Source of the DNA: Acidobacteriaceae bacterium
GTDB taxonomy: Bacteria; Acidobacteriota; Terriglobia; Terriglobales; Acidobacteriaceae
Assembly: GCA_030041515.1 (NCBI GenBank)
Contig: JASHNS010000006.1
Coordinates: 1-39,227, forward strand
Direction of reading: 5' to 3'
DNA: 39,227 bases
In this document: positions 1,692-16,613 of the stretch, piece after piece
How positions within the stretch are numbered: the first letter of the stretch is position 1
How the letters are laid out: every line of letters begins with the position of its first letter
Program-made: the position numbers and the translations under genes
Notes under the pieces: model-generated
Databases searched by the model: none
Told to the model about the DNA's origin: nothing
Seen by the model: the letters and a program-made list of their open reading frames with translations, nothing else

Positions 1692-2588
1692 TTATCCCAC
1701 AAAATACGCGCTGAGCGCGAGAATCAGGAGGGTGAGGCCTATCAGAATAGCCGTAAACCCCACCACTCGACTGAAATTTATCAACCACTTAGGGGGAGCG
1801 TCTGTGATCCTTGTCGCAGACCTTCCTTCGGCGAGCATGCGCTGATATTCGAGGGGGCGGCGATGTTTGAACTCCTCTTCGCTCTCGCGGCCGGTGAAGA
1901 TCACATAGTCCATGGGAAAGCTGTCGGGGCGGAGGTGGGTATTGACGAAGTGGATAGCGAAGATGAAGAGGATAGCGAGCAGGCCTTCCTCGCTGTGAAT
2001 GATGAGGGCGGCGTTGAGAGCCCAGCCTGGGAGGAAACGGGCGAAGGTGGGCGCAAACCACATGGCATAGCCGGAGAAGCCGATGACGACCATCCCCCAG
2101 AACACGGCCCAGTAGTCGAACTTCTCCCAGTAAGCGTAGCGCTCGAATTTCGGCTTGGGGCCCATGCCGAGGAACCAGCGGAAGTGGGCGAAGAGATCCT
2201 TCACGTCCTTCCAGTTGGCGACCATGGAGGTGGGTCCCCAGAAGATGCCTTTCTCCCGCTTGAATAGGCCTCGCGCGAAAATGTCGCGAACGTGGATGAG
2301 GAAGGCGAGGGTGAGGATGAGCGCGCAGAATTTGTGGAAGAAGAGGATAGCGCCGAATCCGCCGACCTGGCGGGCGAGGCGGATAGCCCAGATAGAGCCG
2401 CTGAAGCGCATGACCATGCCCGTGGCAGCCAGCACCAGGAACGTGGTGAAAAGCACGGCGTGGAGGTAGCGTTGGGCGAGGGTGAAGCGCAGGAACCAGC
2501 GCTGGCGCGGCGGTTCCGGAGGGAGAGCGGGCGACGGCTCCGGTTCAGGGACAGAGGCGACGGGGATGGTTGCAGTCGGTTCAGGCAT
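1692..2588 (-). CDS. Cytochrome b, FdnI/b561-like membrane subunit
   Basis: This 298-residue protein has a proline-rich N-terminus and about five membrane helices. Histidines placed to ligate b hemes are seen at about 43, 85, 99, 198 and 213. The layout resembles the di-heme cytochrome b of formate dehydrogenase/thiosulfate reductase type enzymes, which exchanges electrons with quinone. The ATG at 2588 has GGAGGG four bases upstream and overlaps the 11-heme gene by eight bases, so the two are translationally coupled. The protein is homologous in layout to the C-terminal half of the fusion protein at 4492-6663, including the segment YWAVFWG and the FTGRE end of the core. It is probably the quinone-side partner of the 11-heme protein. 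Confidence 0.85.
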   Translation of the reverse strand: MPEPTATIPVASVPEPEPSPALPPEPPRQRWFLRFTLAQRYLHAVLFTTFLVLAATGMVMRFSGSIWAIRLARQVGGFGAILFFHKFCALILTLAFLIHVRDIFARGLFKREKGIFWGPTSMVANWKDVKDLFAHFRWFLGMGPKPKFERYAYWEKFDYWAVFWGMVVIGFSGYAMWFAPTFARFLPGWALNAALIIHSEEGLLAILFIFAIHFVNTHLRPDSFPMDYVIFTGRESEEEFKHRRPLEYQRMLAEGRSATRITDAPPKWLINFSRVVGFTAILIGLTLLILALSAYFVG

Positions 2589-3759
2589 GTTTCCCTCCGT
2601 TGCCGCGCGCGAGGTGCGAGCGGACGAGCCAGAGCACGGTGTGGATGAGGAAGAAAGTAAGGACGCTGGCCAGCAGCAGGTTCATGAAAAGGCGAATGTA
2701 ATAGAGCGCCGGGCTGAGCCTGCGATTGCGGGGGTTGGCGTGGGGCTGGTACTGGACGAAGCTGGCATTGGCGCCGGTGTGACATTTGCCGCAGGTGACG
2801 ATGAGATTCGCGGGCGCGATGGGCGACGCGGGATCGGAGGCAGGGCGAACGTCATGGGCCTGATGGCAATCCCAGCAGCGGGCGGTCTGCACGTAGCCGC
2901 CGAGCAAGCCAAGCTGGGAATGGAAAGTGTCGCGATAGGTCGAGAATTTGTCTCGATGGCAGTTACCGCAGACCGGCGTGGACTGCATGCGGAACTCGGC
3001 GGAGGTGGGCTCCAGAATTGTGTGCGCGGTGTGGCAGTCGGTGCAGACCGGAACGTCGGGATTGCCTTTGGCGGCCAGTTGGCCGTGGATGCCGGCCTGA
3101 TACTGCTGGTTGATGCCGACGTGGCATTTTCCGCAGGTGCCGGGAATGTTGGTGCGGTAGGTGGGGCTTTTGGGATCCTTGTGGCTGAGAATGCCGTGGG
3201 AACCATGACAACTGGTGCAGTTGGCGGCGACGAGCAGGCCCTCTTTGCTGACGGCGAAGCCATGGATGGAATCCATGTAGGAGCCGTAGACGTTGGCGAG
3301 GCCGTGCTGTTTCGCGAGGGCGGGATTGCCGTGGCAGTTGCCGCAGGTCTTCGGGATATTCAGCGGATAGACGGGCGAGGAGGCGTCGGTTTTGGGAACA
3401 ATCTGATGCGGGTCGCCGTGGCACGAGAGGCAGGGATGGTCGCTCGCTTTGGCATGCACGCTGGCTCCAAGACCGGAGGCTTCGTCGGCGTGGCAGGTGG
3501 AGCAGTCGACCTGCGCGGCGTTCGCCGCGTGCGGGTAGCCTTTGACGTTCGTGTGGCAATTCGTGCAGGTGAGGCTGCCGTGAATGCTGGAGTGGAACTT
3601 GTCCGCGTCGATGGAGATGGATTTGCCCGAGGAGTCCGTCATGCCGGGCGTGCCGTGGCAGGAGAGACAATCGGATTGGGCATGCAGTGGGCGGGCGGTC
3701 CAGACCGGGAACAGCGCGAACACAACAAGACTCAGGCCGATGGAGAAATGCTTCTTCAT
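2581..3759 (-). CDS. Secreted, C-terminally anchored 11-heme cytochrome c
   Basis: This 392-residue protein begins with a signal peptide (about 1-27, ending LHAQ). It carries eleven CXXCH motifs between about residues 31 and 335, many of them CGNCH/CGKCH or CTSCH/CTDCH, and repeated S-x-H-G segments that may supply distal heme histidines. One membrane helix (about 351-376) anchors the C-terminus. The ATG at 3759 has GGAG five bases upstream. The cytochrome b gene overlaps its end, so together they form a multiheme/cytochrome b pair like the two halves of the fusion protein at 4492. An electron-relay role in the periplasm is inferred. No catalytic motif of nitrite, tetrathionate or hydroxylamine enzymes was recognised. 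Confidence 0.88.
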   Translation of the reverse strand: MKKHFSIGLSLVVFALFPVWTARPLHAQSDCLSCHGTPGMTDSSGKSISIDADKFHSSIHGSLTCTNCHTNVKGYPHAANAAQVDCSTCHADEASGLGASVHAKASDHPCLSCHGDPHQIVPKTDASSPVYPLNIPKTCGNCHGNPALAKQHGLANVYGSYMDSIHGFAVSKEGLLVAANCTSCHGSHGILSHKDPKSPTYRTNIPGTCGKCHVGINQQYQAGIHGQLAAKGNPDVPVCTDCHTAHTILEPTSAEFRMQSTPVCGNCHRDKFSTYRDTFHSQLGLLGGYVQTARCWDCHQAHDVRPASDPASPIAPANLIVTCGKCHTGANASFVQYQPHANPRNRRLSPALYYIRLFMNLLLASVLTFFLIHTVLWLVRSHLARGNGGKHA

Positions 3760-7321: not shown

Positions 7322-9943
7322 TCAGAATTCGTAGTGAAATCCCAGGGTAACGATGTTGGCGCGGAAATCACGCAAAGCGGTCTCGCCGGAATTCGGCAGG
7401 GTGAGACCGGTCTGCAGGCCGGCGAGCGAGGGGGAGTTGCAGGGAACGACGGTGGAGGGAGTGGTCGGGGTGGGCCCCGCGGTGGTGCAGAAGGGCGCAC
7501 CGGAAGGACCTCCCTCGCGGTAGCGGTAGTAATTGTACCGAGCACTCCAGATGAAGCCAGGATGGAGGGTCCAGGAGGCTCCGAAGAACGGCGACTGGTA
7601 ATTGGAGTTCAGCGATCCAGCCACGTCCCGGGCATCGTTGTAGAAGCGGGTGCCGTCGACGGCGTTGAGGTTTTCGCCGACGTTGGAGTGGAAGGTTTTA
7701 CCCGAATACGTGAGCGCAGCCTGGAGAGAGTTCGTGGGAGCGTCTTCGAAATCCTTCGCGGGGCCGAAGTCCCAGGTGTTACCGCGATTGGCACCGGTCG
7801 CCGGACAGACGGTGCCAGTTGATGTGGCTGCGCCAGGCAGCGTGGCGCTCGCGCCGGCAAGATAGCAGATGTTCGTCGCGGTGTAGACGTCGCTATAGGC
7901 GTAGTTGAGATTGAGAGCGTAGTGCTGGGTGGGCGAAAGCTGCGCGCCGACCGACGCTACGCGGCTGTGCGCCACGTGGTCGAGGGGACCCGCATAAGCG
8001 ACGGCACCCGGATTGCTGACTGGAGTGCCGGCGAAGGGCGGGACGATATCCGCCTGGTTGTTGTTGGTGTTGTTGTGCAGCTCCATGTCATTGAAGGCGC
8101 CGGAGAGCGTGGCCCAGGTCCTCGGGCGATAAAGAGCGTGGATACGATAGTGCTGCTGCTGACGCGGCGCGACAGGAGTGAAGACGTTGTCGGCGTATAG
8201 GATCTCGGCGCTGCCGTCGATGTTCCACTGGTCGTTAGGGCGGAGAGCCGCGTTGAAGACGCCGCCATTCTGATTGATGGTGACGGTGCCGTCGGTGGTG
8301 GCGCCAAGGGCCAGCGGAGCGTCGTGCGGAATGCCTTCGGCGATGACGTGATTGACGTGACGCCAGCCAAGCGAGAGCGTGGCCCGGGACCAGCCATCCC
8401 AGGTTGCGGTGAGATCGTTGGTGATGAAGCGCTGGCCGAAGAAGTCATGCACGGGCGTGCCGATGGCGCCGCTGCCCTCGAAGGTGCCCGCGCCAGCAGC
8501 GGCGGTGGCGGAAGTCTGGTTGGGACAGTTGATGGTCTCGTTATTGGGTCCGTAGCAGGGTCCGGGCGCTGCGGCGGTGCCGATATTCAGCGCGGTCGTG
8601 TTCAGGCTGGTCATCGTGGAGACGCCCGGCTCCTGCTCGTTCGAGAAGCTGAACTGATCGTCGAAGCTGACGTTGCGGGTGGCCTGCCATTCCGCAGCGT
8701 AGTCAACGGCGGTGACCTGGCGGGAGGCGGACGCGGTGGCCGTGTAGTCCTCAGAGCGATAGGCAGGAGTGACGGTGCCCGAGGAGGAGACCGAGTATTT
8801 CGTCAGGCCCTGGAAGATGTCCTGGTAGAGGGGCAGGCTCATATTGGCTTTGGTGTAACGGATATCGCCGTTCATGGCGATGTTCCGGATGCTGGAACTC
8901 TGGAAGCGAAAGATCTCAGTGGGGTAGAGGATGCGCGTGGGCGCCGAGCGGAAGTAGCTGGTGATGACGCCGCAGGCTGGGTTGATGATAGGCGCGCCGC
9001 CGGGCGTGGGAGGAGCCGTAAGAACAGGCGCGGAGGTGGTGTTGCAGGCGCTGGTGGGAGCGAGGCTGTCGTAATCGGCCAGCAGCGCCACGCGGGCTCC
9101 ATTCGCCTCCTGCAGGCGGAAGTAACTCGGGTCCAGGGTGAAATACGAATCGTTTTTATAATGGTCGACGACCTCCTCGAAGGTGAGGCGCGTGAGCGCC
9201 ACCGGCTTCCAGTCGACTTCGCCAGTGAAATCGTCCGTGCTGTTGCGCTGCATTTCCTGGAGGAGGATATCGTAGGAACCCGCAACCTGATAGCCGCTGG
9301 GCGTGAGGCTGGGGCCCTGAAATACGTCCTGCGAGTAGCCCGCCTGATACGACAGTTTCGAGACCGGGAAGAACGTGACGTTCGCATTGGTGCGACGGCG
9401 CACAGTGTTGTAGAGGAAGGGCGACTGGTCCACCTGCTGCCAGGCATAAGGGGTGGTGCTTCCGGTCACGGGGATGCTCTGGCCGAAAGGAATATTGGGG
9501 TTGCCGAGGAGATCGTAGTCAAAGTACTGGCGATCGCGGAAAAAATTGCCGGAGAACTGGTAGAGATTGCCTTTGAAGAAGTCCATGCGGGCGTAATTGT
9601 CGGGATCGCCGCCCCATCCATTCGAGAAGGCGCTAAGCGAGTCAACGAGCGTATGTTTGGTGCCGGGGAGAGCATGGAGTTCGAAGGTCTCGCCCAGAAC
9701 GCGCGGGCCGGCCTCGAGGTCGACCATCGTGTCATACATCGGACCGCTGCCGTTGACGCCGACCACGTGGCCGCCGAGATCGATGGATTCGTGAAGCGCG
9801 TAACCGTTGGGAGCCACCGGCTGCGCGGTGGTGGTCGCATCCTGAGCGATGGCGGCGCCGGTCGTGGCCATCAGAGCGGCGACCCCAAGGCTCGCGGCCA
9901 TGCGTTGAATCGTAAGGGAAGAAAACCAGCCTGGGTTCTTCAT
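7322..9943 (-). CDS. mtrB: MtrB/PioB-family outer-membrane beta-barrel
   Basis: From the ATG at 9943 the protein has 873 residues and a signal peptide (about 1-34, ending AAIAQ). The rest alternates short polar and aromatic strands and ends TLGFHYEF, an outer-membrane barrel C-terminus with a final Phe. MtrB/PioB proteins are large barrels that sheath a decaheme cytochrome to make an electron conduit through the outer membrane. The gene directly follows a decaheme MtrA-type gene, which supports the call more than sequence motifs do. The longer open frame upstream is out-of-frame overlap with that gene. An ATG at 9973, also with an AGAGG upstream, would add ten residues. A GTGAGG precedes 9943 with six-base spacing. 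Confidence 0.85.
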   Translation of the reverse strand: MKNPGWFSSLTIQRMAASLGVAALMATTGAAIAQDATTTAQPVAPNGYALHESIDLGGHVVGVNGSGPMYDTMVDLEAGPRVLGETFELHALPGTKHTLVDSLSAFSNGWGGDPDNYARMDFFKGNLYQFSGNFFRDRQYFDYDLLGNPNIPFGQSIPVTGSTTPYAWQQVDQSPFLYNTVRRRTNANVTFFPVSKLSYQAGYSQDVFQGPSLTPSGYQVAGSYDILLQEMQRNSTDDFTGEVDWKPVALTRLTFEEVVDHYKNDSYFTLDPSYFRLQEANGARVALLADYDSLAPTSACNTTSAPVLTAPPTPGGAPIINPACGVITSYFRSAPTRILYPTEIFRFQSSSIRNIAMNGDIRYTKANMSLPLYQDIFQGLTKYSVSSSGTVTPAYRSEDYTATASASRQVTAVDYAAEWQATRNVSFDDQFSFSNEQEPGVSTMTSLNTTALNIGTAAAPGPCYGPNNETINCPNQTSATAAAGAGTFEGSGAIGTPVHDFFGQRFITNDLTATWDGWSRATLSLGWRHVNHVIAEGIPHDAPLALGATTDGTVTINQNGGVFNAALRPNDQWNIDGSAEILYADNVFTPVAPRQQQHYRIHALYRPRTWATLSGAFNDMELHNNTNNNQADIVPPFAGTPVSNPGAVAYAGPLDHVAHSRVASVGAQLSPTQHYALNLNYAYSDVYTATNICYLAGASATLPGAATSTGTVCPATGANRGNTWDFGPAKDFEDAPTNSLQAALTYSGKTFHSNVGENLNAVDGTRFYNDARDVAGSLNSNYQSPFFGASWTLHPGFIWSARYNYYRYREGGPSGAPFCTTAGPTPTTPSTVVPCNSPSLAGLQTGLTLPNSGETALRDFRANIVTLGFHYEF

Positions 9944-10025: not shown

Positions 10026-10943
10026 CTAGCGAAGGAACGCCGCGTTGATGTTCGAGCCGTGGATGTACGTGTGGCAGCTGGTGCAGGGAGCGAGTTCGTC
10101 GGAGCCGGCGCCCATGCTGTGAACGGTTCCGGCGGCGACGCGGCTGTGGCACTGGTTGCACAGCGTATTGATCGACGGCATGTTGAGCATCCGCGCGTTC
10201 TCAGAGCCATGCGGCGAATGGCAACCCATGCAGCCCTCGGCGCGGACAGCGGCGTGCTCGTAGACGAACGGCCCGCGCACATCCGTGTGGCACTTTGTGC
10301 AGATCTGGTTCTGATCGGCGGTAGCGCGCAGGTTATTCGGCAGGAAGCTGCCGTGTACATCGTGGCAGTCGCTGCACTTGACGACGCCCTCATTCACCGG
10401 GTGGTGGAAGGGCATGTCGAAGTTCGGCTTCACATCGGTGTGGCACTGGAAGCAGAGCTGCGGCTGCGCGGCGACGAGAAGATTTTCCGGAACCTTCGCC
10501 TTGTGCACGCTGTGGCAGCTCAGGCAGCTGAGCCCGGCTTTGGCATGGGGCGAGCGCTGGTAGTTCGGGTGAACCCCGGCGTGGCAGCCGAGGCAGGTCT
10601 CATTGATCTGCTGCGGGGTAAGCTTATCGAAGCGGCGGATCTTGGTGACGTCGCCGCCGCCTTCCACGTGAGCCTGGCCGGGACCATGGCAGCTTTCGCA
10701 GGTGACGCCGTGGCCGTTATGTTCCAGGGCAAGACGGGAGTGGGGGTTGCCGGAAAACTTGTTCACCACATCCTGATGGCAGGTTGCGCACATTTCCTGG
10801 CCGACGAATCCGGCCGGGGTGGGCGCTCCTGTTGGAGAAGCAGCCGCCTGCTGAGGCCCGTGATCCGCGGCCCGCGCCAGCCGGGTTCCAGCGAACCCGG
10901 TCAGCAGCAAAAGACAAGCTGTGCTGATGACAAAACGACGCAT
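10026..10943 (-). CDS. mtrA: Decaheme periplasmic cytochrome c, MtrA/DmsE type
   Basis: This 305-residue protein has a signal peptide (about 1-26, ending ARA). Ten CXXCH motifs begin at residues 52, 82, 117, 140, 164, 190, 215, 238, 262 and 287. Length and heme count match MtrA, MtoA and DmsE, which sit inside an MtrB-type barrel and carry electrons across the outer membrane. It lacks the long N-terminal extension of PioA. Two in-frame ATGs (10949 and 10943) are possible; GAGG lies nine bases before the second and only three before the first, so I use 10943. No extracellular MtrC/OmcA-type decaheme gene is adjacent, as in the iron-oxidising PioAB/MtoAB systems. A CRP-like box with a -10-like hexamer lies upstream. 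Confidence 0.93.
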   Translation of the reverse strand: MRRFVISTACLLLLTGFAGTRLARAADHGPQQAAASPTGAPTPAGFVGQEMCATCHQDVVNKFSGNPHSRLALEHNGHGVTCESCHGPGQAHVEGGGDVTKIRRFDKLTPQQINETCLGCHAGVHPNYQRSPHAKAGLSCLSCHSVHKAKVPENLLVAAQPQLCFQCHTDVKPNFDMPFHHPVNEGVVKCSDCHDVHGSFLPNNLRATADQNQICTKCHTDVRGPFVYEHAAVRAEGCMGCHSPHGSENARMLNMPSINTLCNQCHSRVAAGTVHSMGAGSDELAPCTSCHTYIHGSNINAAFLR

Positions 10944-11254
10944 GAGCATTCACCTCGCGCAGCCTGCCAGGGGGCCTTGAACTTTGCGACACCGTCAGCG
11001 GGCTGGATTGACTGCACCCTGTACATGGGGAGAATATCGGCGGGCGGAAGGCTGACTCAGTGATCAATGTCACAGGGCGATCCTGCTGGATTCAAAGTGG
11101 TTACAATCCCTTCATTTTTCCCGATTCGGGCCGTCGCCAGGGAGGCAGACTGCGTGGATGCTGGCTAGCGGTGGCCGGAAAGTCGCTCTTTATGTGGGCT
11201 TTGAGTGGCACATCCAAAATCTGAAGCACGGGAAGAGCGCACGCGGCAGCGGCG
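10944..11254. other. Intergenic region between hydrogenase protease gene and mtrA
   Basis: About 310 bases without a gene I can support. It holds a CRP-like box (11059-11074) and a -10-like TATTCT on the minus strand (11031-11036), so mtrAB probably starts its own transcript here. The rest shows nothing recognisable. Confidence 0.6.
11031..11074 (-). promoter_or_regulatory. Putative activator-dependent promoter of mtrAB with CRP-like box
   Basis: On the minus strand the box TGTGACATTGATCACT (11059-11074) matches TGTGA-N6-TCACA at nine of ten positions. TATTCT (11031-11036) starts about 30 bases from its centre. This is class II activator geometry, with the site near -42. No good -35 hexamer is seen, as expected for an activator-dependent promoter. 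Confidence 0.5.
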
Positions 11255-11779
11255 TTACTTTGGTTCAGCCATGGCCGCGCACAGGGAGGGAGCCGAAGCT
11301 GGGACCAGGGTAGCTTCGGTCCACGCCGCAATCTGCTCGAGGGCGGCATCGAGCAGCTCGGGAACAGCCGCATCGACCGAGGACGTGAGATCGGTGCCCC
11401 AGCCGATGACCTGGGGCTGAATGCCGAGCACGACGATCTCGCGCGGAGCGCTGCCGGTGAGGCGCAGCGCGCCGATGAGATCGGAGAAGCCGAGGAGATG
11501 GACGCTTTTGCCAATGGGGATCATGTCGATGTCGCTGCCGGCGAAGCGCAGGAGGGTGCCGGACGGGACTCCGGCTTCGACAGCGTCGAGCGCGAGGAGA
11601 TGGGTGATGCCGTCGAGGGGGTGCAGCAGATCAAGCCCGAGGGTGCCACCTTCGATGAGCAGAACGGAGGGCGGCATGCGCGGGTCCGAGCGCAGGCGCT
11701 GGACGGCGAGCATGCCGAGGGCGTCGTCGGCGCGCATGAGATTGCCGAGACCGAGGACGGCGATGCGCGCGGCGCTCAT
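11255..11779 (-). CDS. hyaD: Hydrogenase maturation protease, HyaD/HybD type
   Basis: This 174-residue protein is of the family that removes the C-terminal tail of the [NiFe] hydrogenase large subunit after nickel insertion. Seen are the N-terminal GLGN turn (10-13), Asp19 at the position of the metal-binding Glu16 of HybD, Asp65 and His94 matching the other two nickel ligands. The ATG at 11779 overlaps the cytochrome b stop as ATGA; an upstream TTG at 11788 is less likely. It is the last gene of the hydrogenase operon. The substrate must be the adjacent large subunit, whose tail is unusually long. Confidence 0.9.
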   Translation of the reverse strand: MSAARIAVLGLGNLMRADDALGMLAVQRLRSDPRMPPSVLLIEGGTLGLDLLHPLDGITHLLALDAVEAGVPSGTLLRFAGSDIDMIPIGKSVHLLGFSDLIGALRLTGSAPREIVVLGIQPQVIGWGTDLTSSVDAAVPELLDAALEQIAAWTEATLVPASAPSLCAAMAEPK

Positions 11780-12570
11780 CGATCCCAATGGCGGTCGCGG
11801 TGAATCCGGCGCGGGTTGAAAATGTGCCGGGGCTCGAGGTGAGCGATCTCCAGCTCCTCGTCGATCGTTTCGTCATCGACGAATTTGTAACCGCTGAAGA
11901 TGCTTTCCATTTCTGCGTTGCGCTCGGTCATGGCCACCAGTACGGCGCTATACACGTGATGGATAAAGAAGGCCATGAGGAAGAACATGAACATGAAGTG
12001 AATGAGACGAATCCACTGGATGTCGATGACGCGCGGAATCCAGCCGACGAAGAAGCGGAGCGTGGGCGAGCCCTCGACCGTGGCGAGGAGCACCAGGCCG
12101 GTAACGCACTCACAGGCGATCAGGAAGTAGACGACGATGTAGGTAAGTCCGGCAAGGGTGTTGTGGCCGATCTGCTCGAAGGGCTTGCGCTGCTGGAAAG
12201 TGTAGTACCGCACCATCGCCTTCAGGCTGTGCCATTGGCGCCGGGTGAGAGGCAGGAACTGACGCCAGCGCGCCCAGTGATTGCCGGCGAAGAACCAGTA
12301 AATGCGAACGATGAGGGCGCCGATGAGCTCGAAGCCGGCCAGCTCGTGGATGAAGCGCACGGTTCCCATGGTCCAGGAGCGCGGGCCCGGGAAAATGAGG
12401 AACGGCGTGTGCAGGTACAAGCCGGTCCAGGTCAGAACAGTAACGGCGGCAACGATGCCCCAGTGGCTGAGGCGGACGGGCAGCTCCCAGACGTAGACGG
12501 GGACGAGATGCTCCTCGGCCGCGGCGACGTGCTTCTCTTCGTGGACAGGAGTGAGTACGGCGGCCATCAC
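11776..12570 (-). CDS. hyaC: Hydrogenase cytochrome b subunit, HyaC type
   Basis: This 264-residue protein has four main membrane helices. Conserved-looking histidines in RLSHWG, FIHELAG, LIHFMFM and FFIHHVYSA could bind two b hemes. HyaC-type subunits anchor the periplasmic hydrogenase and pass electrons from the small subunit to the quinone pool. The start overlaps the large-subunit stop as ATGA, and the protease gene overlaps its end in the same way, so the four genes are tightly coupled. The C-terminal 50 residues are charged and cytoplasmic by prediction. Confidence 0.93.
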   Translation of the reverse strand: MMAAVLTPVHEEKHVAAAEEHLVPVYVWELPVRLSHWGIVAAVTVLTWTGLYLHTPFLIFPGPRSWTMGTVRFIHELAGFELIGALIVRIYWFFAGNHWARWRQFLPLTRRQWHSLKAMVRYYTFQQRKPFEQIGHNTLAGLTYIVVYFLIACECVTGLVLLATVEGSPTLRFFVGWIPRVIDIQWIRLIHFMFMFFLMAFFIHHVYSAVLVAMTERNAEMESIFSGYKFVDDETIDEELEIAHLEPRHIFNPRRIHRDRHWDR

Positions 12571-14330
12571 AGGCCTCCCATCTCCGCAGCCGAGCAGGCC
12601 GGAGCGGGCAGATCCGGGACCGTCACGGACTCGTGGCCGTAGCGATGGCCCTGGCCGTCGATGACGTGGACGGCGCAGGCCAGGCAGGGGTCGAAGGAGT
12701 GGACGGTGCGCAGCACTTCGAGCGGCCGCTCAGGATCGGCGATGGGCGTGTTAAGCAGGGCGGCTTCGTACGCGCCGCGCTGGCCGTGGGCGTCGCGGGG
12801 GCCGGCGTTCCATGTGGATGGCACCACTGCCTGATAGTTGACGATGTGCTTGTTTTCAATTTCGACCCAGTGGCCGAGCGAGCCGCGGGGTGCTTCTTCG
12901 AGGCCAAACCCGGCGCAGGATTTCGGCCAGCTCTCGGGATCCCACATGGAGCCGTCGTGAATGCGGACATCGCCACGGGACATGTTGTCGTCCAGCTCCG
13001 CGACCCAGTTCCCCAACTGGCCGGCCACGATCTGCGCTTCGACAGCGCGGGCGGCGATGCGGCCAAGCGTGGAAAAGAGGACCGTAGGCGGCGCGTTGAA
13101 GTGTCCCAGCACGCCATCGACGGCTTGTTTGACGGCGGCGTTGCCCGACGCGTAGGCGATGAGGGTGCGCGCCAGCGGGCCGACTTCGACGGCTTTGTCG
13201 TCGTAACGCGGCGCCTTGAGCCAGGAATACTTGGCGTCGGTATTGAGGTATTCGTAGGGCGGCTTTGGGCCGGAATAATGCGGTTGCGTTTCGCCCCTGG
13301 CCGGAGGCAGACTGGCCTGGTCGCCGACGGAATAGTCGTAATACGAATGGCTGACATATTCGGCGATCTTGCCGGGATCCAGCGGATGCACGGTGGAAAG
13401 GTCGCGGCCGAGGATCACGCCGCGCGGGAAGAAGAAGCGCGACGGATCGTTGATGCTGCCGGCAGGATAATCGCCGTAGGCCATGAAATTGCCGAGGCCC
13501 TCGCCGTAGCCAAACCACTCCTTGTAGAAGCCGGCGACGGCGAGCACATCCGGGATATAGACCTGATTGACGAAGGTCTGCGCGCGGGTCACCAACTCAT
13601 TGAAAAGGGTGATGCGCTCCGGATTGATGACCGCCTCCGGCTCCGTGCCGTCGATTGCGGTAGCCATCCCACCTACAAGAAAGGTCTGCAGGTGAGGATT
13701 CTTACCGCCCAGGACCGCGTGGATGCGAATGAAGTCCCGCTGCATATCAAGCGCCTCGATGTAATGCGCGACAGCAAGCAGGTTCGCTTCCGGCGGCAGT
13801 TGGTAAGCAGGGTGTCCCCAGTCACCGCTGCTAAAGAGGCTCAACTGCCGCGAGGCCACAAGGGCCTTGACGCGGTCCTGGACTCCCTTAAAGTAGGTTG
13901 CGCTCGATTTGGGCCATTCCGAGATAGACTGCGCGAGTTGCGAAGTCTTCGCGGGATCGGCCTTCAGGGCCAGGGTGACATCGACCCAGTCGAGCGCGTG
14001 AAGGTGGTAGAAGTGGACAACATGGTCCTGGACGTTCTGCGAGCCGGCGATCAGATTACGGACCAGGCGGGCATTGTCAGGAATTTGAATGTTGAGAGCG
14101 TTCTCGACGGCGCGGACGGAAGCGAGCGCGTGCACGGTGGTGCAGACGCCGCAAATGCGCTGAGCCCAGATCCAGGCCTCGCGCGGGTCGCGGCCGCGCA
14201 GGATGAGCTCGATGCCGCGGAACATGGTGCCGGAGCTCCAGGCGTCCGTGACGCGGCCTCCGTTGACTTCCGTCTCGATTCGAAGGTGGCCTTCAATGCG
14301 CGTTACGGGATCGATGACGACGCGGGACAT
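12567..14330 (-). CDS. hyaB: [NiFe] hydrogenase large subunit, group 1
   Basis: This 587-residue catalytic subunit has the RIEGH segment near the N-terminus, the L1 motif RICGVC (Cys60, Cys63) and the L2 motif DPCLAC ending at His555 (Cys549, Cys552). These four cysteines hold the Ni-Fe(CN)2CO site. The tail after His555 has 32 residues, about twice the usual length in group 1; the neighbouring protease should remove it. The small-subunit TGA and the ATG share one base, with GGAGG upstream. L2 in the DPCxACxVH form argues for a membrane-linked uptake hydrogenase rather than a bidirectional or H2-sensing one. The subgroup cannot be set by eye. No hypABCDEF genes are in the window. Confidence 0.97.
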   Translation of the reverse strand: MSRVVIDPVTRIEGHLRIETEVNGGRVTDAWSSGTMFRGIELILRGRDPREAWIWAQRICGVCTTVHALASVRAVENALNIQIPDNARLVRNLIAGSQNVQDHVVHFYHLHALDWVDVTLALKADPAKTSQLAQSISEWPKSSATYFKGVQDRVKALVASRQLSLFSSGDWGHPAYQLPPEANLLAVAHYIEALDMQRDFIRIHAVLGGKNPHLQTFLVGGMATAIDGTEPEAVINPERITLFNELVTRAQTFVNQVYIPDVLAVAGFYKEWFGYGEGLGNFMAYGDYPAGSINDPSRFFFPRGVILGRDLSTVHPLDPGKIAEYVSHSYYDYSVGDQASLPPARGETQPHYSGPKPPYEYLNTDAKYSWLKAPRYDDKAVEVGPLARTLIAYASGNAAVKQAVDGVLGHFNAPPTVLFSTLGRIAARAVEAQIVAGQLGNWVAELDDNMSRGDVRIHDGSMWDPESWPKSCAGFGLEEAPRGSLGHWVEIENKHIVNYQAVVPSTWNAGPRDAHGQRGAYEAALLNTPIADPERPLEVLRTVHSFDPCLACAVHVIDGQGHRYGHESVTVPDLPAPACSAAEMGGL

Positions 14331-15457
14331 CAGCGCACCTCCGTGGTCTGGCGCTCAGCGGCTTGATCTTTGTGGGGCTCGGCAGTACCGCCGGGATGGG
14401 AGTGATCGCGGATCACATGGCCGGTGGCGTGCACCGCAGTAGCAGCAGCGACGGCTCCGACGACGGTCCATCCGATTTCGCTTGCGGTGACATCCACACC
14501 GAAGCCGGGTGGGTGCGGCAAGCGGGAGTAGAAAGGCGATTTGGTGTCCCAGAATCGCGAAGAGGCGCACGCAATGCAGCCGTGGCCGGACTTGACGGGC
14601 CAACTGGTAGCGTTGTTCCAGCGCACCGTGGGGCAGTTGTAATTCGCCTCAGGGCCTTTGCAGCCCATTTTGAAGAGACACCAGCCTTTGCGATGGCCCT
14701 CGTCGCCCCACGCCTGCACATAGCGGCCGGCGTCGTAATGGGCACGGCGCTCGCACTGGTCGTGAATGATCTGGCCATAGGCGAAGAGCGGGCGGTTTTC
14801 AGCGTCGAGAGCGGGCAACGCGCCGAAGGTGAGGTAATGGACCAACACCGCGGCGGTGTTGACGGAATTGTGCGGACAGCCGGGCAGGTTGACAACGTTC
14901 ACGCCCGGGACGGCTTCCTGCAGGCCCACCGCGCCGGTGGGATTGGGTTTGGAGCGAACCAGGCCGCCGTCCCAGGCACAGGCGCCGACGGCGATGACCG
15001 CGGCGGCTCCGGTGCAAACTTCCTGCACGATCGAGAGCGCGGTACGCCCGTTGACGGTGCAGTAGATGCCATCGTCGGCGGTGGGGATGGCACCTTCGAC
15101 GATGACAAGGTACTTGCCGGTCTCTTCCTTCACTACACGCTGAAGGGCGGCTTCAGCGTGCTTGCCGTAGCCAGCCATGATGGTCTCGTGGTATTCGAGC
15201 GAGACGGCTTCGAGAACGATGTCCTCAATAGTGGGGTGCGGCGAGCGCAGCATCGACTCGGTATTCCCGGCGCAATCCTGGAACTCGAGCCACACCAGGG
15301 TGGGCTTACGCTTTGTGCTTAAAGCATCAGCGATGGTCTGCGCGTAGGAGGTCGGCAGCGCCAGGGTTGCGGCCATGGTGCCGCAGAATTGCATGAACCG
15401 CCGGCGTGAGAATCCTCGTACCTTACAGATTTCCAAAACCGTTTGAGCGTCGGGCAT
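14330..15457 (-). CDS. hyaA: [NiFe] hydrogenase small subunit, group 1, with altered proximal-cluster motif
   Basis: This 375-residue protein has a Tat signal (SRRRFMQF at 18-25), so the enzyme is exported folded. Cluster ligands seen: proximal Cys62, Cys160 and Cys194; distal His232, Cys235, Cys260 and Cys266; medial Cys275, Cys294 and Cys297. The usual CxxC of the proximal cluster reads Cys62-Ala-Gly-Asn65, so the second cysteine is missing. The extra cysteines of six-Cys O2-tolerant enzymes are also absent (residue 164 is Gly). A weak hydrophobic segment (about 327-345) with nearby histidines forms the C-terminal anchor. The ATG at 15457 has AGGGAG four bases upstream; the open frame before it starts with TTG inside the operator. 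First gene of the hydrogenase operon. Confidence 0.96.
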   Translation of the reverse strand: MPDAQTVLEICKVRGFSRRRFMQFCGTMAATLALPTSYAQTIADALSTKRKPTLVWLEFQDCAGNTESMLRSPHPTIEDIVLEAVSLEYHETIMAGYGKHAEAALQRVVKEETGKYLVIVEGAIPTADDGIYCTVNGRTALSIVQEVCTGAAAVIAVGACAWDGGLVRSKPNPTGAVGLQEAVPGVNVVNLPGCPHNSVNTAAVLVHYLTFGALPALDAENRPLFAYGQIIHDQCERRAHYDAGRYVQAWGDEGHRKGWCLFKMGCKGPEANYNCPTVRWNNATSWPVKSGHGCIACASSRFWDTKSPFYSRLPHPPGFGVDVTASEIGWTVVGAVAAATAVHATGHVIRDHSHPGGTAEPHKDQAAERQTTEVR

Positions 15458-15543: not shown

Positions 15544-15608
15544 CCGCGAACATTTTTGCGGCCAGGGTCATGGCTGAAGTCATCATGCACCGGCGTGGCC
15601 GGTCACCG

Positions 15609-15646
15609 CGTGACCCCCGTCACACCAGTTTGTGCCGACAGTCACA
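15609..15646. promoter_or_regulatory. Two further CRP-like boxes in the divergent hya/usp region
   Basis: CGTGACCCCCGTCACA (15609-15624) and TGTGCCGACAGTCACA (15631-15646) each match TGTGA-N6-TCACA at nine of ten positions and are 22 bases apart centre to centre, about two helix turns. The first also overlaps the inverted repeat GGTCAC-CGC-GTGACC (15601-15615). They lie upstream of the stress protein gene, which they may control. Confidence 0.45.
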
Positions 15647-15679
15647 GTCAGCGCGGAAGGACCGCGGGAGACTTCTTTC

Positions 15680-15695
15680 AGGAGGTGATCCCTCC
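15680..15695 (+). promoter_or_regulatory. Extended Shine-Dalgarno able to fold into a hairpin
   Basis: AGGAGGTGATC (15680-15690) is an eleven-base match to the 16S rRNA anti-Shine-Dalgarno end, five bases before the ATG at 15696. GGAGG can also pair with CCTCC (15691-15695) across a five-base loop, hiding the site. This may lower or regulate translation of the stress protein. Confidence 0.5.
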
Positions 15696-16613
15696 ATGAA
15701 CGTTGCTGAAGAACTCAGCCGCAGGGCGCGCACATTTGTGGTTCCGGAAAAGATCCTGGTCGCGAGCGATCTGGACGACATTGAATACCTGATACCCCAC
15801 GCAGCCGCGCAGGCCCGCGCCTGTGGAGCCACGCTTACCCTGGCGCATGTAATCCCACCCGGCGAGGCGATGCCTCTGGACGCGAGCGCGATTCCTTACC
15901 TGGATGTCGCGTCGCTGCGGGAAGAGGCCAAACAAACGCTGGAACACGCTGCGGAACCGCTGCGCGACAGTGGGATTCCCTGCGACGTGCTGGTGGCCGA
16001 AGGTCACCCGAGCGATCAGATCGCGACACTGGCCCGCGATCTCCAGGCAGGGCGCATTCTGGCGGGGACCCACGGGCGCCGGCACCTGAAACGATTCTTC
16101 CTCGGCTCGGTGGCCCACGATATCCTGTGTGCCGCCAACATCCCGGTGTGCACTATTGGACCTCATGCCCACGCAGCCTCTTCGTTCGGCGCCCCGCGTA
16201 AAATTTTGCATCCCGTGTCGCTCTGCGAGGGATGTGAGGACACCGCGCGCATCGCGATCGAACTGGCGGAATTCTATCGAGCCGACATCACTCTGCTGCA
16301 CGTCCTGAGCAAGGATGCGAAGCACCAGCAGGACACCGGGCGCATTGTGGAGTGGACCAAATCCGAACTAAAGCGGATGGTGCCGCCAGAAGCGGATCTG
16401 TGGAGCCGGACGACCGTCAAGGTGGAGATTGGGGATGTTGTCGAAGAGGTCCTGAGTGCAGCCGCCGAGATTGCCGCGGATCTGATCGTCCTGGGCGTAA
16501 GTAAGGACGTGACGTTCTGGCCCATCCGCGGCGACGATACCGTATACGACATCATTGCCAGCGCGAAGTCGCCTGTACTAAGCTTCCGGCGATCGCCTGG
16601 ACGGGGGGAGTGA
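15696..16613 (+). CDS. Tandem universal stress protein (two UspA domains)
   Basis: This 305-residue protein has two Usp folds, about 17-155 and 165-300. The first ends with the ATP-binding pattern G-x2-G-x9-G-S (GTHGRRHLKRFFLGS). The second has VLGVSKDVTFWPIRG instead, with the motif degenerate, so only the first half is likely to bind nucleotide. The gene diverges from the hydrogenase operon and shares a 238-base promoter region with several CRP-like boxes. Usp genes often accompany anaerobic or starvation regulons, so co-regulation with H2 metabolism is plausible but inferred. The start is fixed by a very strong ribosome-binding site. Confidence 0.9.
   Translation: MNVAEELSRRARTFVVPEKILVASDLDDIEYLIPHAAAQARACGATLTLAHVIPPGEAMPLDASAIPYLDVASLREEAKQTLEHAAEPLRDSGIPCDVLVAEGHPSDQIATLARDLQAGRILAGTHGRRHLKRFFLGSVAHDILCAANIPVCTIGPHAHAASSFGAPRKILHPVSLCEGCEDTARIAIELAEFYRADITLLHVLSKDAKHQQDTGRIVEWTKSELKRMVPPEADLWSRTTVKVEIGDVVEEVLSAAAEIAADLIVLGVSKDVTFWPIRGDDTVYDIIASAKSPVLSFRRSPGRGE

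Follow-up and report, generated by a model that had tools for sequence, protein, structure and literature searches.

The window, by which we mean the whole stretch of DNA analysed (39,227 nucleotides), probably stems from a soil acidobacterium and carries on its minus strand the genes of a [NiFe]-hydrogenase, followed by a group of cytochrome genes. The features on which our analysis is based are the following:

14330..15457, minus strand: [NiFe]-hydrogenase small subunit, 375 aa, ATG start (translation, TIGR00391, PDB matches)
15263..15277, minus strand: Asp61-Cys62-Ala63-Gly64-Asn65 in the small subunit (codons GAT TGC GCC GGG AAT; alignments)
14978..14980, minus strand: Cys160, presumed proximal ligand (alignments, codons)
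14969..14971, minus strand: Asp163, where other rows have an aromatic residue, Asn, His or Ala (codons, alignment, tree)
14876..14878, minus strand: Cys194, presumed proximal ligand (alignments, codons)
12567..14330, minus strand: [NiFe]-hydrogenase large subunit with L1 motif RICGVCTTVH and L2 motif SFDPCLACAVH (PF00374, 751.6 bits)
11776..12570, minus strand: b-type cytochrome subunit (TIGR02125, 125.8 bits, cut-off 121.5)
11255..11788, minus strand: hydrogenase maturation protease (TIGR00072, 118.3 bits, cut-off 47.45)
10026..10949, minus strand: DmsE/MtrA-type decaheme cytochrome c with 10 CXXCH motifs, a linked neighbour (TIGR03508, 260.9 bits, cut-off 192.2)
7325..9943, minus strand: 873-aa protein, possibly an outer-membrane barrel, a linked neighbour (no family above cut-off)

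The small subunit scores 415 bits with the NCBIfam model for hydrogenase small subunits (TIGR00391, cut-off 179.5), and it matches small subunits in the PDB with a best E of 4e-89. Its translation contains a Tat motif (SRRRFMQ) and a C-terminal hydrophobic segment, where the predicted structure places a helix at residues 325-353 with low confidence. This model has a mean pLDDT of 65.7, and of 54 in residues 61-70, which makes the site too poor for distances; a fold search with the same low-confidence model returned group 1 small subunits at query TM-scores of 0.45-0.47 and an rmsd of at least 11 A among the 50 matches listed. For the large subunit, the best PDB match is that of A. vinosum (3myr).

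In the genome to which the window belongs, the small subunit has a single match and the large subunit a single full-length one (751.9 bits); the other large-subunit matches are partial and reach at most 56.5 bits, with two of them, on one contig, above the Pfam cut-off. The genome also has a second, divergent large-subunit-like frame (genome G000, contig C101, 17246-18475), which PF00374 matches in two pieces of 56.5 and 49 bits. The presence of one HypD and five COX1 matches in the genome suggests that the host is an aerobe able to mature the hydrogenase. A divergent universal-stress-protein-like gene, with matches below the curated cut-offs, adjoins the hydrogenase on the plus strand (15570-16613) and also lies beside it in seven related loci (L002-L008).

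Directly downstream of the hydrogenase, the minus strand between 4492 and 10949 encodes the decaheme cytochrome, the 873-aa protein, a small cytochrome c and a 13-haem protein fused to a cytochrome b561 domain, a gene order that is repeated in five Acidobacteriaceae loci; an 11-haem protein (2581-3759) and a cytochrome b561 (1692-2588) are also found on this strand. The pairing of the decaheme and 873-aa genes occurs in 6 of the 80 loci L002-L081, downstream and in the same order in L002, L005, L006, L007 and L008 and rearranged in L019. Locus L009 has the decaheme without the 873-aa gene, some 7 kb further on, and neither gene lies within 10 kb downstream in, among others, L011, L013, L016, L018 and L029; in further loci, L003 and L004 among them, the contig is too short on the downstream side. 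Within the phylum, 19 of 396 genomes carry relatives of the 873-aa protein, including one (G007) in which the phylum search gave no hydrogenase match. In G061 the hydrogenase small subunit and an 873-aa relative (69% identity) share a contig at a distance of about 3 kb, as they do at about 10 kb in G202 and G359 (41% and 44% identity). Seven aligned members of the 873-aa protein gave no NCBIfam and no PDB match, and at E values up to 1 Pfam offered DUF3187 only, below its cut-off, for one of the seven (E 0.22). The predicted structure is strand-rich but unreliable (mean pLDDT 28), and we dropped the label 'MtrB-like', as it would rest on position only. Homologues of mtrA and mtrB have been noted in several acidobacteria (PMC5900883), and our literature search, which covered papers in part, found no description of this hydrogenase beside an MtrA-like cytochrome. 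The neighbourhood may connect the oxidation of H2 with extracellular electron transfer.

The feature of interest in the small subunit is the motif Cys-Ala-Gly-Asn, for which the codons TGC GCC GGG AAT, preceded by GAT for Asp61, confirm the reading given in the preliminary description. Alignments with Hyd-2, Hyd-1 and the Desulfovibrio vulgaris enzyme place Asn65 opposite the second Cys of their CTGC motif, and align their remaining proximal ligands to Cys160 and Cys194. The three cysteines at 62, 160 and 194, which we take from the family to be the proximal-cluster ligands, are thus indeed all that is left of the usual four. For the distal cluster we presume His232, Cys235, Cys260 and Cys266, and for the medial cluster Cys275, Cys294 and Cys297, with Pro287; all of these positions, Pro287 included, are kept in the 88 rows of the clade described below, and the predicted medial and distal clusters have ordinary ligand sets. 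Asn65 is no sequencing error, since Asn is also found in L002-L008, seven rows from separate MAG records that form a starred 8-row set with the window.

How common is Asn at this position? Our alignment holds 122 rows, which represent near relatives and not the whole family: the window small subunit (P0001), 80 rows (L002-L081) that are the best 80 of 321 pattern-found relatives, 29 rows (L093-L121) that are the best matches of a phylum search with a match in 96 of 396 genomes, and a further 12 rows supplied by 11 stretches of plasmid records, two of them by L091; L001, being the window itself, was omitted. The tree was built from the small subunit only, by a quick method, with columns 61-66 excluded and long branches flagged. 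It places the window in an 88-row clade and, within that, a 44-row clade, both starred, where stars of quick trees with long rows deserve less trust.

Position 65 is Asn in 63 rows, Asp in 33 and Cys in 26, while Cys62, Cys160 and Cys194 are present in all 122. Within the 88-row clade, which spans Acidobacteriota, Chloroflexota, Nitrospirota, Actinomycetota and others, the counts are Asn 54, Asp 31 and Cys 3, and the state of the position changes at least 7 times inside this clade and at least 10 times on the whole tree. Asn and Asp codons are a single transition apart (AAC 55 and AAT 7, GAC 14 and GAT 19 in the other 121 rows). The columns that separate Asn rows from Asp rows were listed as well, a list that the kinship of the rows makes weak evidence. 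Since 85 of 88 clade rows have Asn or Asp and the state changes repeatedly, while the three cysteines are invariant, the pattern argues for a tolerated exchange at a ligand site and not for decay. Judged from these alignments, Asn or Asp is the normal state at residue 65 of the clade. The three clade rows with Cys65 occupy two places in the tree, L059 in one and L021 with L023 in the other; if the clade ancestor had no Cys65, which the counts do not prove, the residue was regained at least twice. L021 and L023 are Bryobacterales relatives inside an otherwise Asn subclade.

The substitution has a history in the literature. According to PMC5364354, the HupS proteins of mesophilic strains have Asn for one of four Cys, group 2a also shows Asn, and a change from Cys to Asn or Asp occurs in the group 1f enzymes of Roseiflexus, Geobacter and Frankia. 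A table of proximal position 2 lists Cys-to-Asp in G. metalloreducens and Cys-to-Asn in N. punctiforme, and the C81D and C81N variants of the A. macleodii hydrogenase, altered at this position, still evolved measurable H2 when assayed crudely in whole cells, in an already altered enzyme background (PMC4070099). Group 1f hydrogenases have been described in A. capsulatum, S. bohemicum and A. ailaaui (PMC5900883), and the Roseiflexus enzyme is labelled group 1f (PMC6776052, PMC5364354). Because both the exchange in group 1f and the Roseiflexus assignment are on record, the substitution at residue 65 and the group were both previously known.

The window enzyme itself can be assigned to group 1f, a group termed polyphyletic (PMC6896113), because in our quick small-subunit tree the Roseiflexus rows (L035, L048 and L051) fall in its starred 44-row clade. 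Two traits of group 1f agree with this: Asn65 represents the Asn or Asp found for the second proximal Cys, and the Tat motif and the TIGR02125 neighbour correspond to export and membrane anchoring with cytochrome b. We therefore consider it probable (about 0.8, a figure that leaves the type of cluster aside) that the locus encodes an exported, membrane-bound group 1f [NiFe]-hydrogenase with Asn65 at the proximal ligand position. Gene order, motifs and tree place are observed directly; as to function, the enzyme would oxidise H2 and pass the electrons via three Fe-S clusters to cytochrome b and then to the quinone pool.

Three other types were considered and rejected. The extra Cys of the six-Cys [4Fe-3S] type (group 1d) stand at 19 and 120 in Hyd-1 numbering, positions also named in structure titles, which correspond to 64 and 165 here. 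Both are Gly in the window and in 88 of 88 clade rows, whereas in each of the 19 rows with Cys64 position 165 is Cys too; the exclusion of this O2-tolerant type in the preliminary description is upheld. Group 2a (Huc, HupSL) does not fit, as a starred branch separates the window small subunit from the Huc-like rows L083 and L084, the latter of which scores 528 bits to Huc. Group 1h is characterised by the L1 motif TSRICGICGDNH, the L2 motif SFDPCLPCGVH, Asp at the site and no Tat signal, according to PMC5364354, whereas the window enzyme has a Tat motif, RICGVCTTVH, SFDPCLACAVH, Asn65 and a tree place far from the 1h rows. Its L2 motif had rightly been called unlike that of 1h. The suggestion that this motif combined with Asn65 may define another cluster type is not supported, given that 85 of the 88 clade rows carry Asn or Asp, that 1f cases have been reported (PMC5364354) and that Huc has Cys-x-Gly-Asn as well. 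Asn65 turns out to be largely routine, being a known substitution in a known subgroup, although the subgroup itself is described as poorly studied (PMC6896113).

What kind of cluster does the proximal site hold? The ligands of the cluster would be Cys62, Cys160 and Cys194, Asn65 takes the position of the missing fourth Cys, and under either cluster type discussed here the site is unlike the usual four-Cys one. We give roughly even chances to a proximal [3Fe-4S] cluster, which by homology with Huc seems somewhat likelier than an Asn-capped [4Fe-4S]. Huc reads GGACSGNT at the aligned site, thus Cys-x-Gly-Asn (CSGN), and all three of its clusters were reported to be [3Fe-4S] on the basis of density, the fourth coordinating residue and EPR (PMC10017518). 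As the couples of [3Fe-4S] clusters are in general some 250 mV more positive than those of [4Fe-4S] clusters (PMC10017518), such a cluster would raise the proximal potential and favour H2 uptake, and scavenging of trace H2 by the window enzyme might follow from the raised potential.

A real possibility, to which we give somewhat less than even chances, is that Asn65 binds the fourth iron as a weak ligand and completes an ordinary cubane [4Fe-4S] cluster. Cyanobacterial HupS has been described with a proximal [4Fe-4S] held by one Asn and three Cys (PMC6616624), isolated HupS contained two [4Fe-4S] and one [3Fe-4S] (PMC4463661), and its unusual ligands still gave the expected 4Fe4S type, as cited in PMC4070099. 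The repeated exchange of Asn and Asp on our tree points the same way, with Asp taken as fourth ligand of a [4Fe-4S] cluster in the 1h enzyme HofK (PMC5364354). Against it stands the high-resolution whole-enzyme structure of Huc, in which the same motif accompanies [3Fe-4S] (PMC10017518).

A second change lies close in sequence to a cluster ligand. Asp163, three residues after the ligand Cys160, is shared by all 44 rows of the window's Acidobacteriota/Chloroflexota subclade and by none of the 78 others, which have Tyr, Phe, Trp, Asn, His or Ala; it arises by one change on the tree, likewise with columns 157-167 excluded. The Asn/Asp substitution at residue 65 has been described, and for Asp163 our search of partly available papers, in which a residue is not searchable as a word, found no description. 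Its invariance and single origin, and its place two residues before position 165, the extra-Cys site of six-Cys enzymes in all 19 Cys64 rows, speak for a role of Asp163 at the proximal cluster of the subclade, either as an oxygen ligand or through its charge. We consider this unlikely, as Asp163 does not track the missing Cys: it stays in L021 and L023, which have Cys65, and is missing from 21 of 63 Asn rows, so that it is no partner of the lost Cys. A more far-reaching proposal, that the Acidobacteriota/Chloroflexota 1f branch has its own proximal site of Asn65 plus invariant Asp163, with a high-potential or proton-coupled cluster ([3Fe-4S], or a fourth iron coming and going) in an exported group 1 enzyme, separate from Huc and tuned for trace-H2 uptake, is doubtful in our view.

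The preliminary description had named Asp61 or Asn65 as a possible fourth ligand. In the alignments it is Asn65 that stands at the ligand position, and a ligand role for Asp61 is highly improbable. Asp61 does accompany Asn65 in 60 of 63 rows, the exceptions (L083, L084 and L091_1) lying in an outgroup with the Huc-like row. However, it also stands beside Cys65 in all three clade rows that have it, is Gly or Glu in 4 of the 31 clade rows whose residue 65 is Asp, gives way to Glu (22) or Ala (1) in the other 23 Cys65 rows, and is Ala in Huc and Gly in HofK; we regard it as a family-typical residue. That Cys133 takes over as ligand is barely credible, since this residue, kept in 88 of 88 clade rows, is also found in 25 of the 34 remaining rows (113 of 122 overall), some with the full Cys set, and the residue facing it in the solved Asn-type Huc is not Cys.

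Since Asn, Asp and Cys all occur at one ligand site among close relatives, these enzymes constitute a natural series on how the proximal cluster relates to H2 affinity and O2 tolerance, in which L021 and L023 with Cys65 are ready comparisons. In Acidobacterium ailaaui, a group 1f hydrogenase is credited with oxidising H2 to sub-atmospheric levels (PMC6776052), and for Huc the oxidation of atmospheric H2 has been reported (PMC10017518).

In comparison with known systems, the window enzyme resembles the six-Cys O2-tolerant hydrogenases (E. coli Hyd-1, C. necator MBH) in overall family, Tat signal and cytochrome b, and differs in lacking both extra Cys as well as the second standard Cys. With Huc, the group 2a enzyme of Mycobacterium smegmatis (PDB 7uur, 7utd), it shares Cys-x-Gly-Asn at the proximal site, but the two are distant (87 bits to P0001), and Huc has three [3Fe-4S] clusters whereas the window enzyme keeps the usual distal His and Cys set; Huc, moreover, is not known to be Tat-exported. 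The group 1h HofK of Cupriavidus necator (PDB 5aa5) likewise combines three proximal Cys with a non-Cys residue at the same position, but this residue is Asp (CDGD, within GCDGDS), the L1 and L2 motifs are other ones (PMC5364354), and the match to P0001 is 83 bits. Relative to group 1f, we found no feature that sets the window enzyme apart, as Asp163 marks only the Acidobacteriota/Chloroflexota subclade, Roseiflexus rows included; it falls with Roseiflexus in the tree, and with the group (Roseiflexus, Geobacter, Acidobacterium) it has in common a proximal position 2 occupied by Asn or Asp (PMC5364354) and the accompanying cytochrome b and protease genes.
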